Shown one piece after another: positions 8,923 through 63,119 of a stretch of DNA of 64,000 nt (its first letter is position 1; each line of letters begins with the position of its first letter). The notes beneath the pieces were generated by a model. The model had not been told where the DNA came from. It saw only the letters and a program-made list of their open reading frames with translations, and searched no databases. This DNA comes from a virus: the IMG/VR virus record IMGVR_UViG_3300042731_008413, positions 19,421 through 83,420 of that record, one strand, 5' to 3'. The translations under genes and the position numbers were made by a program.

Positions 8923-9326
8923 GGCGCAGCGCACCGGTAGAGACCAAACCTTACGTCAAGCCCGAAGTCAAACATCGAGACCCACCCAACGGCACTTTCT
9001 GGAAATGTGCGGGCTGTGGGTCTGACAACTTCGGCAAGTTCATCGATGGTGAGCTTCATATCAAGTATCGGGAGCGGGTAATGGTAGTCGGGGGGATGGT
9101 TGAGGTTCATTGTCGTTTTTGCGGTACTCGTAATCAAATCGATTTGGCTGTGTACCCTTATAAGGTGCAGGTTCACTTCAATGCCCCGGAATTTGATGTA
9201 GAAATCACTGAGGCGGCCTTGCGCCTCGCTCAAGAGAACGGGTTGAATATCAGGCGACTTCAGGGGTCGGGTAAGGACGGGAAGATCGTGGTGGGGGATG
9301 TGAAGGGGGCTTTGGGGTTGAAATAG
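8919..9326 (+). CDS. Zinc-ribbon protein with E3-binding-like C-terminus
   Basis: 135 residues on an ATGA overlap with the preceding gene. Residues about 29-70 hold CAGC...CRFC, a four-cysteine zinc ribbon like that of phage Com-type proteins. The C-terminus ALRLAQENGLNIRRLQGSGK followed by DGKIVVGDVKGAL closely matches the peripheral subunit-binding (E3-binding) fold of 2-oxoacid dehydrogenases (A-x-x-L-A-x-E-x-G-x-x-x-x-x-x-G-S-G-x-x-G-x-I-x-x-x-D-V). The combination suggests an adaptor binding both a nucleic acid or metal and a protein partner. It ends the operon; a promoter starts 4 nt after the stop. Confidence 0.65.
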   Translation: MRRSAPVETKPYVKPEVKHRDPPNGTFWKCAGCGSDNFGKFIDGELHIKYRERVMVVGGMVEVHCRFCGTRNQIDLAVYPYKVQVHFNAPEFDVEITEAALRLAQENGLNIRRLQGSGKDGKIVVGDVKGALGLK

Positions 9327-9915: not shown

Positions 9916-11301
9916 TTAGAGACCAAAACTGGTCGGTCCATTTTGGTCTATATCGTCCAATGCCGCCTGCAAGAGCGGTCCCACCCTCGGCCATTGCTCA
10001 TTGGCAACGACTGCATTGAACGTTCCATCTTCGATACAGGTTGCTAAAAATGCGCTATATAAATCTCTTTGAACCACCTCCCCATCATCGAATTTATGCC
10101 ATCTTTGCGACAAAGACTTCTTTTTGAATTCGCCGGTTTTGTGGTCTAGCTGGCTCAGTTTTGTGCTATAGGTAGAGAACTCTTCAACTAGACCGTCATA
10201 ATCATCCATCTTTTGCTTCAGCCGGGCTACAAACATCCCCGGAGCACGCATGCCAACGGATTTTCCGAACATCTTTTGAAATGCAACGTAAGACAACTTT
10301 TCCAAACGGATTACGTTACCCATTTGGAGAATCTGGTTGATTAGTTGTCCGTGTAGCGACTTGCGGTATTCTGCTTGTTTCCTTTTTAATTCGCTTAATT
10401 TTATTTCGGTCTTTAGTTGCCTATTTGATTTTACCCATCGTTTGAGTTGCGAACGTGGTTTAACGGTTCCATCTGTGTTGTAATTGTCAGGGTTGTTAGC
10501 GCGCCGTTGTCGGTCTACCTTACGTTGTAATAGTCGTATATCTCGTTGAATATCCTCTAGTTCCGCGCAGAATTGTTTTAGAAACGCCATATCTTGAGAA
10601 ACAACAGCGACAGTTGAGGGGCCGATGTCCAACCCAACAACACCTTTCCCAAGAGAATGTCTTTTGTATGGTTTGCCTACATTGACGAGTTGAGCAAAGA
10701 ACCTGGTTTTTCCATTGAGTTCACGACGAATCAACCGGACAAATTTTATTTCAGAATTCAGGCCATGAGACATTATCGGGTCATCGTAATCTATAATAGC
10801 CTCAAGTTTGATCTTCTTCCCGTTGCGCCCGGAATTCCACACAACACAGTCATCTCTCCAAATAATGCCTTGTAAATTCGTTACTCCCTCAACCGAATTT
10901 AACTGCCCAAACCTTTTGAATTTTGGCCTCCCCCTTTTTGGGTCAAACAAATATTCGCTCACCCAGGTAAAAGCCCTGGATGCCAGTTTTTTAATGGTCT
11001 GACTGTCTAAATGATAACCTAACCAGGAGTAACCAAATTGTTTAGCGAAGAAATGAATGTCGTATTCCCTAAACCCAAATTCTTTGTTGAGCCTGACAAA
11101 TTCAGCGGTTCTTTCTTTGCCTTTTGGGAGTAGTCGAGCCTTTTGCCAATCCTTTGATTCCCTCATCAACTTCAAGCGGCGAAGGGATTCGCCCAAGCAA
11201 GCATTATAGACCTGCCTGGCCGCCTCAAAACGCTTATTGAGTACAGACTCCTGAGTGGGGGTTGCTTTTAGGGGGATTTCGGTAATAAATCTATCAGACA
11301 T
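9916..11301 (-). CDS. tnpB: TnpB-like RuvC protein (OrfB_IS605 family) lacking its zinc finger
   Basis: 461 residues. RuvC-I is VGLDIGPSTVAVVS (Asp), RuvC-II is VIRLEKLSYVAFQK (Glu), and RuvC-III is QRDLYSAFLATC (Asp), so the catalytic triad appears intact. Close TnpB relatives carry a four-cysteine zinc ribbon before QRDLYSAFLA; here that stretch reads KLSQLDHKTGEFKKKSLSQR with no cysteines. There is no tnpA transposase nearby. TnpB proteins are RNA-guided nucleases; this one may be a domesticated derivative. It overlaps an upstream 42-residue ribbon-helix-helix gene and is opposite in strand to the surrounding late operon, which marks it as inserted. Confidence 0.8.
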   Translation of the reverse strand: MSDRFITEIPLKATPTQESVLNKRFEAARQVYNACLGESLRRLKLMRESKDWQKARLLPKGKERTAEFVRLNKEFGFREYDIHFFAKQFGYSWLGYHLDSQTIKKLASRAFTWVSEYLFDPKRGRPKFKRFGQLNSVEGVTNLQGIIWRDDCVVWNSGRNGKKIKLEAIIDYDDPIMSHGLNSEIKFVRLIRRELNGKTRFFAQLVNVGKPYKRHSLGKGVVGLDIGPSTVAVVSQDMAFLKQFCAELEDIQRDIRLLQRKVDRQRRANNPDNYNTDGTVKPRSQLKRWVKSNRQLKTEIKLSELKRKQAEYRKSLHGQLINQILQMGNVIRLEKLSYVAFQKMFGKSVGMRAPGMFVARLKQKMDDYDGLVEEFSTYSTKLSQLDHKTGEFKKKSLSQRWHKFDDGEVVQRDLYSAFLATCIEDGTFNAVVANEQWPRVGPLLQAALDDIDQNGPTSFGL

Positions 11302-44819: not shown

Positions 44820-45827
44820 ATGGCTAAAGCAAAAGTGCAGTACAATGTAGTCTCCATCGATGTGGGATATGGTTTTGTTAAAGCCCTCAAGTCATTGGAA
44901 GAGAAGCCGGTTGTGTTCCACAGCCTGATTGCGCCGGTTCGAGAGGGGTTCGATTCCGGGTTCGGCAAAAAGCGAACGGCTATCGAGATTGACGGCCAAC
45001 CCTATTACGTGGGGTGGGATGCCAGCTTCAGCAAGCTGGCCCGCCAGACCATCGACCGGGACCGGATCAAAACCGATGAGTTCAAGGTCTTGTTCCTGTC
45101 TGCCCTCAACCGGTTGTACCCTTCCGGGGCCTCCGGTCTTTTGGTGGCCACCGGTTTACCAGGTGGCTGGATGGGCGACTCGGAAGCCCTCTCCAAAGCC
45201 TTGGCCGGCAAGTTCAACGTCAAGGTTGGCAGTCGCACCGTAGGCTACGAAATCGCTCAGGTTGTACCTTGCCCCCAGGTTTTCGGTAGCTGGATGCGAG
45301 AGGCTTTTACTATCAACGGCAACGGCAAGCCGACCGTAACCGACGCCCAGATAGCCAACGAACCGACCTTCCTGGTCGATTTCGGCAACGGTACTACCGG
45401 TTACGCTTTTATGAACGGGGCCTACATTGCCGACTACAGTGGTTCCGTTGACGTGGGAATGTCCAACGTCATCAGCGGTCTTTCCCAGGCTTGTAGCCGG
45501 GAGTTCGCTTACGAACCCCCCTACACCGAGTTGGTCAAGGCTCTCATCACCGGCAAGCTCAACGTCTACAACAAGGCCGAGAACGTGTCCGCTCTCTTTG
45601 CCCCCTACAAGGCCGAGGTCATTGACAAGGTGTTGGCCGACGTCCGCTCGGCCTGGAAGGACGTTATCAAGCAGGGGCGGACGCTGTTATTGACCGGAGG
45701 CGGGGCCTCGGTCTTGGGTGACGATTTCCGCCGCCAGTTCGGTCACCCCAACACCGTGATCTTGCCAGACTCTCAGATAGCCAACGCTCAGGGACTCTTG
45801 ATCTATGGCCGATACCGAGCAAACTAA
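44820..45827 (+). CDS. parM: ParM-like actin-family partition ATPase
   Basis: 335 residues, GGAGG site. Actin-fold motifs: VVSIDVGYGFVKALKS (phosphate 1), FLVDFGNGTTGYAFM (phosphate 2), LLLTGGGASVLGDDF (adenosine). Polymerises to push plasmid copies apart. Followed by a ribbon-helix-helix gene, the standard type II partition order, supporting maintenance as a circular plasmid-like prophage. Confidence 0.82.
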   Translation: MAKAKVQYNVVSIDVGYGFVKALKSLEEKPVVFHSLIAPVREGFDSGFGKKRTAIEIDGQPYYVGWDASFSKLARQTIDRDRIKTDEFKVLFLSALNRLYPSGASGLLVATGLPGGWMGDSEALSKALAGKFNVKVGSRTVGYEIAQVVPCPQVFGSWMREAFTINGNGKPTVTDAQIANEPTFLVDFGNGTTGYAFMNGAYIADYSGSVDVGMSNVISGLSQACSREFAYEPPYTELVKALITGKLNVYNKAENVSALFAPYKAEVIDKVLADVRSAWKDVIKQGRTLLLTGGGASVLGDDFRRQFGHPNTVILPDSQIANAQGLLIYGRYRAN

Positions 45828-56040: not shown

Positions 56041-56911
56041 CCCCCAAAATAGTCAAATATGGCAATTAGTACCATAATACTAATAATTGGCTAGTAAATG
56101 GGTATAATCTGGCTTAATTACTAGTATATTGTGGGGTTTTTACTTCGCTTAATGAGTTTTTAGCGACTTGTAGAAGTGAAAAGCACAGTAGATTAGGAAA
56201 GATAGATGTGAATTAAAGTGTGGCTCACCCCACAGCACCGATAATTGGCGATATAAGGCGATTATAGGCAATCGAGGATAGATTGTACCGATTGTTTCAT
56301 TATAGAGGATATAGGCCAGTATAGAGCTATAGAGTAGTATACATAATACAACGTCCTAAAATCGCCTGTAATCAATTGACCGGCAGAAACGATAGATTAT
56401 ACCTATATTGATTGTAATCGTATGCTGACCAGCACAGCACACAGCACATAGCAAACTAGCAGCATAGTCAGAGTCCTATGGTATGCTGGCGTATAATCCT
56501 ACTGTGTAGGCCAGTAGATTAAGATAGCAGCGAGTGAGTGTATAGTGTGTAGAGTGAGTGAAATTAGATTGTAGGATGTAGGTCAGTAGGATTATGATCT
56601 GTGTTGTTTGGTGGCCAGTTAGACTAGATGATTATAGGGCAGTGGGGGCGCTCGACCGGCCCAGTTTACGGGGGGGGGGTTGATTTTTTTGGGGGTTTAA
56701 TATTGTTTATGCTGTACCCCCACCCTCGTCTCCCAAAAAATTCCCGGTGCGGCCCTCGCCCCCACCGCGGTCCATCCATCCCCCAAACCCCTCAAGATAT
56801 TCCCATCTCCCCCTCCTCCCCCACCCCAGTTTCCTGGACCATCATCACCTCCCGTCCCCCGAAGATGATGGAAGAAGATGATAGGTTACAGCCTACCTAA
56901 GCCCAAAAGGG
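56041..56911. other. Long non-coding control region, candidate origin
   Basis: About 870 bp without a convincing gene. The left 600 bp are AT-rich with many short repeats (GGCGATATAAGGCGATTATA, CAGCACA units, TATAG/AGTAG words). The right 250 bp are strongly pyrimidine-rich on the + strand (C-runs), after a G10 run at 56667-56676. An AT-rich block beside a skewed tract between divergent promoters is compatible with a replication origin, but no DnaA-box cluster was recognised. Confidence 0.45.
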
Positions 56912-56940
56912 TTGACAAATTTTCTATTGTCGGTTATTAT
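56912..56940 (+). promoter_or_regulatory. Sigma70-type promoter
   Basis: TTGACA 56912-56917, 17 nt, TATTAT 56935-56940. Same TTGACAAATTTTCTAT core as at 9330. Transcription would begin at the 5' arm of the structured RNA. Confidence 0.8.
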
Positions 56941-56949
56941 AGAGGTGAT

Positions 56950-57142
56950 TTATTATCAAGGGTCGTGGGCTACCAATGGGTCTCTGTGCAGGTAGCATCT
57001 ATCCCGGAAGGGTGGGGATGTAAGCCCCACCAAAGCGACTGATGAGGAGAGTAACGACTCCGAAACATAGGAATATGTATCGCGGAGTGGGCAAAGCCGG
57101 GGAATAACCGCCCACCAGGAGGCCCACGACCCTTGATAATAA
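56950..57142 (+). ncRNA. Structured RNA closed by a 21-bp helix and containing a hammerhead ribozyme
   Basis: Arms 56950-56970 and 57122-57142 are perfect 21-bp complements. Inside are GGTGGGG/CCCCACC (57011-57031), the hammerhead core (57035-57083) and GTGGGC/GCCCAC (57087-57115), plus TACC/GGTA. The promoter places the transcript start at the left arm; the first ORF starts 19 nt after the right arm. Confidence 0.8.
57035..57083 (+). ncRNA. Hammerhead ribozyme (type I topology)
   Basis: Stem I GCGA (57035-57038) with TCGC (57080-57083). Core CTGATGA (57039-57045), stem II GGAG/CTCC (57046-57049, 57058-57061) with loop AGTAACGA, GAAA (57062-57065), stem III ACATA/TATGT with a GGAA tetraloop, and cleavage triplet GTA (57077-57079). 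Predicted cut between 57079 and 57080. All invariant hammerhead positions are present. Confidence 0.85.
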
Positions 57143-57161: not shown

Positions 57162-57560
57162 ATGACCAACCTTGACAGACTTCACAAGACCATCCAACAG
57201 GCCCGTCACGATCCCAGAGATGGCCGCACTTTTGCCACCTGTCATAACGTAGCCGGGTTGCTGGAGACCACCCCATTTGGGGCCACGATTGTGTGGGTAT
57301 TGCCCCGGATGGGTTGGGCAGACCATATCAAGCCGATGTTGGCCGGGGTATTGGAAGAGCATGGCATTGTTCCCCGGCGTTGGTTGCGGTATGCGGTTGA
57401 GTTCGAGAGGGAAAGGTCGTTGCATTTCGTACCGATAGAGGATATACGGGAGTGGAGTCGGGGTAGAAAAGACCTGTTTCGGGTCGATGATTTGGGAGAG
57501 GTGGTGGATCGTATGACTGACAGGCAGTATCGGATGTTTTTGGAGTGGGTGAGCCAATGA
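57162..57560 (+). CDS. Hypothetical protein downstream of the ribozyme
   Basis: 132 residues (MTNLDRLHKTIQQARHDPRD...), basic. No family recognised. First gene of the rightward operon, so its mRNA carries the hammerhead in its 5' leader. Overlaps the next gene by ATGA. Confidence 0.55.
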   Translation: MTNLDRLHKTIQQARHDPRDGRTFATCHNVAGLLETTPFGATIVWVLPRMGWADHIKPMLAGVLEEHGIVPRRWLRYAVEFERERSLHFVPIEDIREWSRGRKDLFRVDDLGEVVDRMTDRQYRMFLEWVSQ

Positions 57561-60030: not shown

Positions 60031-61026
60031 TTAGAAGAGGCTGAGTTGTTCTTTGGCGACCTTTTTGGGTCGCTTTTTCTTTTTGATGTGGATGGGCTTG
60101 GGCAGGCAGAATCGGCTGGTCAGAAGCAGGTAGGCCAGGGAAGCGCAGGCTGGGACCTGGCCGTTACCTATGGCTTTTAGGCGACCAACTCGGTTGGGGA
60201 TGTCTGAGGCAACGCGGGGGATGGGGGGTTCGATGTACCACCAGGAAGCTCCCGAGAGAAGCCATTCGGCCACTCGTTCGGGAGGTAAGGGATCGAGGGA
60301 TGTCCAGCCTAAAGGCCAGTTCATTAACCATTCTACCCAGTCGGGGTTGAGTTGGCCGGAGACCTCATCTCTTTCACCATCATCGTCTATTATCCTTGTC
60401 GTCAATGATTGTTGTGTTCCTTTTTTGCCTGTGTCACGACGTTGGTAGCCAAGTCTGGGTTCATGGGAGTTGGGAGTAGGGTACGATTCGTTTTTGACAA
60501 CTTGTTCAGAGAGGGGGCGACTGTTGCGTTGGTGAGTCTCCTCGGAGGCTTTGCCAGACCGCCAGTCGCGGGAAGATGGGGTGGCCCAATCAACGGCTGT
60601 TCTGAGATTTAAGCCACCTTCTCGACCTGAGTTACCGGGGCCTCCCATCCCATCGGCTTTTGAGGGTGTAGGCCACAACCTTACCCCCAATACCTCTTCG
60701 GCTTCATCCTCTGATAATTCCCCGCCCGTGACCATCCGTTGGACCATTTCTCTGGAACCGGAGCCGCCCAGGAGGCCACGGGTTCGGGGGGAGGGCCAAT
60801 ATCTAATAAAGTCATGTAGGGTGGTGGTAACTTGGTTGCCGCTTCGTTTATCGTGGGGTTTTTTACCTGGTTGCCAGGGGTTACCATGACTATCAACTAG
60901 ATCGTCAGGGTCGGGAACATTTGATGTGAGCTTATTAGCCGTTGGCGTGGGCCACAACCCAGAGACGGTCCCTCTGGTGATTGCCGCCAATGGCCGACGC
61001 CGGTAGGCAGTCCCAGCGACAATCAT
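60031..61026 (-). pseudogene. C-terminal half of a DNA cytosine-5 methyltransferase in a shifted frame
   Basis: From about 60985 leftward this frame reads LWPTPTANKL, RLWPTPSKADGMGG, ATPSSRDWRSGK, QLNPDWVEWLMNWPLGWTSL and AIGNGQVPACASLAYLLL, all features of phage m5C methyltransferase recognition and C-terminal motifs (IX/X). An ATG at 61026 could start it independently. The N-terminal half is in another frame (60935-61537). It ends KEQLSLF, a clamp-binding motif. Confidence 0.6.
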
Positions 61027-61537
61027 ACCCGCTCTGGGCCAGGTCCGCGAGTATGGTGCCATAGTACCCGACAGGGTTTTCTGCCCCGTTGTCCATTGAG
61101 CTGAGTAGGCCAGGGACGTTCTCAAGAAAGACCCAACGAGGTCTGATCTCGTTAATGAGGCGAATGGTGTGCGGCCAGCCGTTGCTGGGATCGTCCATTC
61201 CGCGGCGCTGGCCAGCGTTGGAGAAGGGCTGGCAAGGAAAACCTGCCGTAACCACCAGGCGGTTTCGATTTTTGCGGAGTTCCCGGATGAAGCGGCGGCA
61301 TTGATTATTTCGTTTCGTGAAGGATCGGATGTCGGTCCAGATCGGGGCGTCATCGAGCCAGCCGTCTTTGATCCGGGCTTTGAGGATCTGGATGGGGTAG
61401 GACTCGAACTCGACGTAACAGACCGTTCGCCAGTCGAGATGGTATTTGGTGCCGAGGACTCCGCCTCCGACCCCGGCGAACAGGGCGACTTCGTACAGAT
61501 TGGGTGGTAAATCCAACTCATGGTAGACTCCTGTCAT
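60935..61537 (-). CDS. DNA cytosine-5 methyltransferase, N-terminal catalytic half
   Basis: 200 residues. Motif I VALFAGVGGGVLG, motif IV VTAGFPCQPFSNAGQRRG (Pro-Cys catalytic), motif VI VFLENVPGLLS (ENV), motif VIII DRLWVVAHA. It stops (TAA) immediately after motif VIII, where the partner half continues in a different frame using the same DNA. Either a frameshift mutation, programmed frameshifting, or a two-subunit enzyme. Confidence 0.75.
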   Translation of the reverse strand: MTGVYHELDLPPNLYEVALFAGVGGGVLGTKYHLDWRTVCYVEFESYPIQILKARIKDGWLDDAPIWTDIRSFTKRNNQCRRFIRELRKNRNRLVVTAGFPCQPFSNAGQRRGMDDPSNGWPHTIRLINEIRPRWVFLENVPGLLSSMDNGAENPVGYYGTILADLAQSGYDCRWDCLPASAIGGNHQRDRLWVVAHANG

Positions 61538-61562: not shown

Positions 61563-63119
61563 CTAGAACAGCGATAACTGCTGCTTGGCTACTTTGGTTT
61601 TCTTTTTCTTTTTGGACCTGGCCTGTTCCAAACTGGCTTCAGTCACGATGTTTTCAGCCAGGGGTGCAGCGTACCTGGAGAGGTATTCGGCTGACATATC
61701 CAGGCCGATGGCCCTGAGACCCAGGGACTTGGCGACCCGGACCGTGGTGCCGGAACCAATGAAGGGGTCAAGGACGATGCCGGGGGTCGAGGGGGCGTTG
61801 GTGCATCCTGAGCTTGTCGAAGGGCAGGCGCATTGGGGGAGACAACCGGTGGTTTCTGTTGTGCCGTCAATTCTGCCGGAGCCTGACATTCCTATTGTCC
61901 CTGATTTCTTTTCCCCTGCACCACCCTGTGCTTGATAAATGGCATCTGTTTTGGGGCAAGGCTTTGATGTGGCGGGTGTAGATTCCACTTGCCTCACCCA
62001 CGGGTCCCCACACTCACTACAAACCTTCTGAGGACACCCGGCAGCAATCAACGGGCGAATCAGGCGGTCGGGGTAGGTGGCAAAGTGACTGCCCTCGAAT
62101 TGGTTGGTCGAAGAGATGGAACCGAGGACTTTGCCGGCCTCATCGATGAGCAAGCCTTCGGAGCGACAGGCTTTCAGATGGTTTAGGTAGACTTCGTAAG
62201 TAGCGATCATATCATCCAGGGAATCGAAGAATGGGTCGGTGGTCCGATAGCGGCGGAGGGGTGGGGGTTTGCGGTTGGGGTTGGCTTCTCGTTCGGCCAG
62301 GAAGGAATGAGGGGCTTGCATTGGGGCTCCGTTAATCATCTTGTGGTCAGCAGAAAGACCCCTGGTTTCTCGGGCTATAGATTTGGGACTGGTAGGTAAC
62401 ATCGAGGCCACGTAATCCCAATAATATCGCTCCGATTTGGAACACATAATCATATATTCGTGAGAGAAGGTGGGGCGGTCTGTTGCCGAATTTGGAAGCC
62501 CGTTACTTTTGACCCACTCCCAATCCTGCCTCACCCACCAGCCATCCTCCTGGAGAGCAATGGCCAGGCGTTGAGGAATGAGGGCTTTGTCTTTGGGTTT
62601 GAGGTTTGGATGTTTCTTAACGGTCCCTCGCCCCTTGTCAGCGCGATAGCCGCCCCTGGAAGCGGATTGGGAGATGCCGGGGTTGGCGTGGTCGTGGGTG
62701 TGCGCCCCCCCAGACCCCATCCAGGTATCCCCCATATTGATGATGAGGGTTCCTTTGGGGTGCAAAACCCGCTTGACTTCTCGAAAGACTTCGACTAGAT
62801 GATCGACAAAAAGAAATGGGTCGGGTTCGTTGCCGAGTAAACCGCGCCAGGCCCCGCAATATTGGCAGAAAGCGCCGCTTTTTGCCCGGTTACCATCGGT
62901 TACAGCCGTGTTGCCAGACCACTTGGACTGGTTGACCTGACCACCTTTTTTGGGGGGTAGTTGGCTTCCCCAAACGTGCCGGCACCCCGGATCACCACCC
63001 CAAATTTCGGGGTCAAGACTGGAATAAAGCCTTAAACTCCAATAGGGAGGGCTGGTAATTGCAAAGTGAATCGAATTGTCTTTTAGGGGAATTCGTCGGG
63101 CTGAACTATGGGATAGCAT
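61563..63119 (-). CDS. SPPY/TSPPYW-type DNA methyltransferase
   Basis: 518 residues. Motif IV ITSPPYWSLRLY near the N-terminus and motif I VLDPFIGSGTTVRVAKSLGL near the C-terminus: the beta-class order of N4-cytosine/N6-adenine enzymes. A zinc-like CSECGDPW lies between. Residues CPSTSSGCT are translated from an inserted dispersed repeat. Ends VAKQQLSLF, a sliding-clamp motif after a Lys-rich linker. It overlaps the coiled-coil gene by 14 nt. Confidence 0.85.
   Translation of the reverse strand: MLSHSSARRIPLKDNSIHFAITSPPYWSLRLYSSLDPEIWGGDPGCRHVWGSQLPPKKGGQVNQSKWSGNTAVTDGNRAKSGAFCQYCGAWRGLLGNEPDPFLFVDHLVEVFREVKRVLHPKGTLIINMGDTWMGSGGAHTHDHANPGISQSASRGGYRADKGRGTVKKHPNLKPKDKALIPQRLAIALQEDGWWVRQDWEWVKSNGLPNSATDRPTFSHEYMIMCSKSERYYWDYVASMLPTSPKSIARETRGLSADHKMINGAPMQAPHSFLAEREANPNRKPPPLRRYRTTDPFFDSLDDMIATYEVYLNHLKACRSEGLLIDEAGKVLGSISSTNQFEGSHFATYPDRLIRPLIAAGCPQKVCSECGDPWVRQVESTPATSKPCPKTDAIYQAQGGAGEKKSGTIGMSGSGRIDGTTETTGCLPQCACPSTSSGCTNAPSTPGIVLDPFIGSGTTVRVAKSLGLRAIGLDMSAEYLSRYAAPLAENIVTEASLEQARSKKKKKTKVAKQQLSLF
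61803..61826. repeat. Dispersed short repeat (SDR) inside a gene
   Basis: ATCCTGAGCTTGTCGAAGGG on the + strand, in frame with the methyltransferase and adding PSTSSG-like residues. Related to the element at 42780. Confidence 0.65.

Follow-up and report, generated by a model that had tools for sequence, protein, structure and literature searches.

Type I hammerhead ribozymes (Rfam RF00163, Hammerhead_1; also RF00008, Hammerhead_3) are among the described RNAs closest to the element reported here, which likewise possesses the full catalytic core, three stems and an NUH triplet and is open at stem I. It differs from the Rfam hammerheads in that its stem I is only 4 bp long and runs into a conserved pseudoknotted RNA. 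The phage and prophage hammerheads of Perreault et al. 2011 (PMC3088659) are intergenic, as is ours, and share with the present class the core changes U3/A8 and A6a, which that study describes as natural hammerhead variants. GOLLD and ROOL, large conserved noncoding RNAs of phages and prophages whose function is unknown, often occur near tRNA islands (PMC12286853), and we find the same combination of phage carriage and frequent proximity to tRNA genes here. They are, however, several hundred nt in length, whereas the present core spans about 90 nt, bears a hammerhead and is circularly permuted; the RNA has no match to the GOLLD and ROOL models of Rfam and is unrelated to them in sequence.

Circular permutation is itself known from the hammerhead and twister types, in which the same fold is built from different strand orders (PMC10085705). 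Here it is the larger host RNA that is permuted, whereas the hammerhead within it retains the type I order and stays at the junction between two halves, A and B. A further parallel is provided by rRNA processing stems, in which a long perfect helix cut by RNase III encloses a stable RNA that is released from a polycistronic precursor; a long closing helix is seen here also, although cutting by RNase III is presumed and the helix is missing from copies in tRNA arrays. None of the 4,227 Rfam families matched the core, a scan of the window and related loci giving only tRNA and int-alpA elsewhere in the loci, and the RNA was not recognised as a tRNA or tmRNA by ARAGORN or Rfam. Since searches of the open-access literature likewise gave no description of it, the RNA class is, on these comparisons, new, while its hammerhead part is a new member of a known family.

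The hammerhead and its enclosing helix

The window, that is, the whole stretch of DNA analysed, comprises 64,000 nucleotides of an 83,420-base IMG/VR virus record in which the RNA is single-copy. A first-pass annotation had described a hammerhead within an RNA closed by a perfect 21-bp terminal helix and preceded by a consensus promoter. We found both the helix, as the inverted repeat 56950-56970/57122-57142, and the promoter again, and the conserved hammerhead positions, stems, GTA triplet and predicted cut site at 57079/57080 are all present in the sequence as claimed. The elements outside the core are:

56912-56940, + strand: predicted sigma-70-type promoter, TTGACA-17-TATTAT, a consensus match re-found by script
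56950-56966, + strand: 5' strand of the outer helix P1, pairing with 57126-57142
57035-57038 and 57080-57083, + strand: stem I, GCGA/UCGC, 4 bp
57039-57045, + strand: CUGAUGA (CTGATGA in the DNA), catalytic core of the hammerhead
57046-57049 and 57058-57061, + strand: stem II, GGAG/CUCC
57062-57064, + strand: GAA of the hammerhead core, followed by the A15.1-U16.1 pair
57065-57069 and 57074-57078, + strand: stem III, CAUA-GGAA-UAUG plus A15.1-U16.1
57079, + strand: A17, the end of the triplet GUA (GTA)
57079/57080, + strand: predicted self-cleavage site, GUA/UCGC, placed by hammerhead rules
57126-57142, + strand: 3' strand of P1, from the inverted repeat
57162-57560, + strand: 132-aa ORF, the downstream neighbour, outside the RNA; no PHROG match

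The complete type I hammerhead, read from the sequence at 57035-57083 (+), possesses C3U4G5A6N7G8A9, G12A13A14, the A15.1-U16.1 pair and an H17 other than G, with three helices meeting at the core and the end of stem I open. A strict descriptor (4-bp stems, exact core) found this one site in the window, none on the other strand and none in 150 Markov-simulated windows. Cleavage at 57079/57080 is strongly predicted and, following H17, would yield a 2',3'-cyclic phosphate and a 5'-OH. The Infernal search with Rfam hammerhead models that had been suggested as a check was run and left this hammerhead unscored even at E<=10, although the motif is complete; at loose thresholds, the Rfam search of the window returned only noise. 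The same holds beyond the window: among 14 loci scanned with Rfam, at least 11 of them with an intact hammerhead, none reached the gathering score, and in L006 the hammerhead models scored only 22 bits. Given that the intact hammerheads of L043, L046, L053, L057, L069, L083, L084 and others were missed by Rfam 15 at the gathering threshold, current surveys undercount phage hammerheads.

The innermost 4 bp or so of the 21-bp repeat (56967-56970) compete with the core helices P2 and P3, leaving an outer helix of about 17 bp. Folding of the 221-nt RNA gave a z-score of -6.1. As the promoter ends at 56940, transcription would start roughly 2-3 nt ahead of the helix. The RNA lies in the 5' UTR of the 132-aa gene with no terminator between them, and a cis role is therefore possible in this window; a search of the viral collection gave no relative of the 132-aa product.

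Several features of the surrounding DNA may be recorded in their own right. The interval 56500-56900, where leftward and rightward genes diverge, is noncoding and has a strong strand skew, with a GTGTAG-like G-rich tract, a G10 run and then a C-rich tract in that order. A ParA-like partition protein (phrog_691) is encoded at 44820-45827 and suggests a plasmid-like prophage state. A transposase gene (phrog_506; 9916-11301, -), possibly an inserted IS element, lies just upstream of a head protease gene, and two adjacent DNA methyltransferase genes occupy 60031-61521 and 61563-63119 (-).

A conserved core in two gene orders

Outside the hammerhead and within the enclosed RNA lies a core of about 90 nt that the first-pass annotation did not see. 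In the window it consists of the following segments, among which a subtype-specific hairpin is also listed:

56965-56969, + strand: GUGGG motif, start of half A; invariant in the core alignment and present also in half-B-scan matches, where it was unconstrained
56970-56974, + strand: 5' strand of P2, CTACC, pairing with 56991-56995
56978-56984, + strand: 5' strand of P3, GGGTCTC, in the P2 loop; pseudoknot with 57119-57125
56991-57000, + strand: 3' strand of P2, GGTAG, then conserved CATCT (alignment and pair counts)
57003-57007, + strand: 5' strand of PK, CCCGG; pseudoknot with 57097-57101 in the P4 loop
57011-57031, + strand: extra hairpin GGTGGGG-ATGTAAG-CCCCACC, subtype-specific, also in L092, L099 and L114
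57082-57086, + strand: GCGGA motif, start of half B; GYGGA across the family
57087-57092, + strand: 5' strand of P4, GTGGGC, pairing with 57110-57115
57096-57101, + strand: 3' strand of PK, GCCGGG, in the P4 loop (pair counts)
57102-57108, + strand: GAATAAC, a conserved segment of the P4 loop (alignment)
57110-57118, + strand: 3' strand of P4, GCCCAC, then conserved CAG (alignment and pair counts)
57119-57125, + strand: 3' strand of P3, GAGGCCC (pair counts)

We rotated 27 cores to a common order, with the hammerhead and P1 removed, and obtained a gapless alignment of 90 columns. It contains four helices: P2 and P4 are the hairpins of halves A and B respectively, while P3 and PK are pseudoknot pairings, P3 linking the 3' tail of half B with the P2 loop, and PK linking the P4 loop with the tail of half A. 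Overall, 98.9% of the helix cells are paired and both sides change in 18 of the 24 pairs, with 167 double-change cells against 42 in shuffles; sliding the helices by 1-3 columns lowers pairing to 33-45%. Each helix has its own record of paired cells and of pairs with double changes: 100% and 4/5 for P2, 99.5% and 6/7 for P3, 98.8% and 4/6 for PK, and 97.5% and 4/6 for P4. For the conserved bases prescribed by the search patterns, invariance is partly ascertainment; the helices lie in unconstrained positions. Half B was checked in half-A matches and half A in half-B matches, separately. GYGGA in place of GCGGA was seen only in the third scan, in which half A alone was constrained. A family with a four-helix fold is thereby shown by comparison.

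The two halves are similar in plan, A reading CGUGGG-hairpin-CAUCU-tail and B reading CGYGGA-hairpin-CAG-tail, and the loop of each pairs with the tail of the other. They occur in either order, as A-B, the hammerhead then lying between them, or as B-A, in which case it stands at the 5' terminus; in Enterobacter phage SDFMU_EhYP, for example, the halves are reversed relative to the window, which is a circular permutation. The hammerhead sits at the same A/B junction in either order, and the RNA class is, by the arrangement of its aligned halves, circularly permuted.

A canonical hammerhead occupies the A-B junction in 53 of 64 non-redundant members. Stems I-III show compensatory changes among these 53, stems II and III varying freely and stem I being 4 bp long, with covariation at its first pair (C-G in 28, G-C in 20, A-U in 4). 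A15.1-U16.1 is present in all 53 and H17 is C, A or U, never G; the CUGANGA core is found in 52, with Mycobacterium phage Gaia carrying a compensated U3/A8, and L096, outside the 53, has an A6a insertion in its hammerhead core. About ten members without a hammerhead keep the core, and some of them have no more than 3-5 nt where the ribozyme would stand; L047, L049, L051, L065, L088, L094, L095, L101 and L105 possess a short linker or hairpin there, and L056 retains a decayed remnant. The cut is therefore not essential everywhere, and CGCGGA, being kept in hammerhead-less members, is part of the core and not of the ribozyme. The ribozyme varies more than the core does, and across the aligned members the hammerhead is both conserved and lost as a module. 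By eye, loop II types recur (UAACG, GAAA, UGAGA-like), which suggests a tertiary contact between loop II and stem I. One member, L149 (5373-5570, +), has an insertion of roughly 50 nt inside the ribozyme domain, ahead of the half-B motif.

Distribution among phages

Three scans with different constraints found the core in about 100 different IMG/VR viral contigs, with 39 contigs matching a half-A pattern, 71 a half-B pattern and 18 an actinophage-like half-A pattern; those inspected were homologous. The first homologue, L006, was found with a core pattern in viral contigs, and its hammerhead surroundings are also conserved, with compensatory changes. Sensitive blastn added an Aquitalea plasmid carrying phage genes and phage SDFMU_EhYP. 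Members in isolated phages include the Dickeya/Pectobacterium phages Setonix, Pappous and Taid, the Arthrobacter phages Karkharias and Constance, and Mycobacterium phage Gaia. The class thus spans phages of Gamma- and Betaproteobacteria and of Actinobacteria, and was missed by Rfam and by the PGAP annotation of E. coli prophages. Most of the query is present in 15 of 5,426 E. coli genomes, while others share no more than 38 nt at the 3' flank. In E. coli CFSAN061763 (L138, locus 9001-9211) an unannotated copy lies between antiterminator Q and holin of a lambdoid prophage, and in a second strain a copy lies between portal and terminase. The half-B pattern had no match in 1,149 bacterial genomes of three classes, so that chance matches to it are negligible. 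Judged by these occurrences, the RNA family is associated with phages.

Other candidates were set aside as chance: L004, L005 and L007-L014 from the first core patterns (coding matches, L006 alone being genuine), the 26 matches of a hammerhead-pattern scan of genome contigs, and the Novosphingobium and Persicobacter blast matches. A search for relatives via the portal protein of L006 returned only itself. In phage Pappous (L084, 8016-8132 of PQ008973) the RNA is annotated as hypothetical protein CDS0014, probably a false ORF.

RNA ends, genomic neighbours and proposed function

The ends of the RNA differ between members. A long P1 helix is present in 22 of the 53 A-B members, its sequence differing in every one with pairing kept, and in 11 of 11 B-A members, in which it is a capped hairpin. 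Within tRNA arrays, a tRNA ends 2-3 nt before GUGGG in L049, L094, L117 and L124, and a tRNA starts directly after the RNA in L049, L094, L117, L113 and L084; an intrinsic terminator follows some copies. The terminase large subunit is the commonest neighbour, but no gene family is a consistent one, the largest families amounting to at most 4 of 93 neighbour proteins, and the constant position upstream of one gene family that would mark a riboswitch or cis-leader was not found.

The explanation that we favour, and hold to be rather likely, is that of an uncatalogued structured noncoding RNA of phages that acts in trans, is excised from longer transcripts and is nicked by its own hammerhead. A stable RNA was one of the roles that the first-pass annotation had entertained, and it is the one that the evidence favours. 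We infer that the functional part is the approximately 90-nt core of two similar halves, which would be made from longer phage transcripts (late or tRNA transcripts). Its outer ends would be set by P1, where the length of the helix points to trimming by RNase III, by tRNA-processing enzymes in tRNA arrays, or by a terminator. The hammerhead, grafted on the A-to-B junction, would cut immediately ahead of half B. When the gene order is A-B, the RNA would then consist of two pieces joined through the roughly 13 bp of P3 and PK and, in members that have it, through P1; the earlier proposal that the enclosing helix holds the two cleavage products together is supported for members such as that of the window. 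In the B-A order the same cut would free the 5' end of the RNA from the upstream transcript, giving a single RNA with a 5'-OH at GCGCGGAGU. Either order would thus leave the RNA interrupted where the tail of A meets the start of B, with a 5'-OH beside the conserved CGYGGA; because the 3' strand of stem I overlaps CGYGGA, cleavage may release this strand for the core. As the core is phage-specific, compact and highly conserved, it likely hits a common bacterial target; the action of the RNA is probably in trans, on a partner that many bacteria share. Such an RNA would place phage hammerheads in a definite context and assign them a role that experiments can address, since a conserved noncoding RNA can carry them as its own processing domain. 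The existence of both permutations, and of copies that have or lack the ribozyme, amounts to a ready natural experiment on the purpose of self-cleavage.

More tentatively, the cut may itself be the activating step of a split, two-piece RNA. By freeing CGYGGA it would allow the pseudo-symmetric core to finish folding and then to target, in trans, a conserved component of the host that might belong to translation or to tRNA metabolism. Two permuted genes would arrive at the same broken topology.

Two readings in which the RNA serves its own transcript seem to us unlikely, and equally so. According to one, this is a natural allosteric ribozyme whose core senses a ligand, tRNA or protein, switches the hammerhead and regulates the adjacent transcript. 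With a stem I of only 4 bp whose 3' strand lies within conserved CGYGGA, folding of the core and of the hammerhead must be coupled; artificial fusions of hammerheads to structured RNAs report ligand binding (PMC12747935), and the window copy lies just after a promoter and ahead of an ORF. Against this, hammerhead-less members keep the core, many copies stand in tRNA arrays or before terminators, B-A copies have the hammerhead at the 5' end, and the mixed neighbours weaken a riboswitch, there being no consistent downstream gene. The suggestion of the first-pass annotation that the RNA is a leader or switch of the 57162 operon fares poorly for similar reasons, its 132-aa gene being without viral relatives, the homologues of the RNA having no consistent neighbour family and many of them being free-standing, in tRNA arrays or ahead of an intrinsic terminator. 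According to the other reading, cleavage together with the outer helix serves to mature or stabilise a neighbouring phage mRNA, the core being a mere scaffold for the cut. The late-operon sites of several phages agree with this (terminase/portal in L006, capsid/tail genes in SDFMU_EhYP, Q/holin in E. coli prophages), but it leaves unexplained the greater constancy of the core relative to the ribozyme, its persistence where the ribozyme has been lost and the placement of copies in tRNA arrays.

That we are dealing with a known hammerhead in a phage and nothing else of note is very improbable: hammerheads in phages and prophages are indeed established (PMC3088659), but the half-A/half-B core was absent when looked for around those of PaP3 and Bcep176, and the strong covariation of the core itself contradicts such a view. 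Slightly less credible still, and rejected, is a short MITE-like mobile element, bounded by terminal inverted repeats and containing a ribozyme by chance, for which the perfect 21-bp repeat and the scatter among unrelated phages could be cited, since the repeat is absent from 31 of the 53 A-B members and differs in sequence in every member with pairing kept, this genome holds a single copy, and circular permutation fits RNA structure and not transposition.
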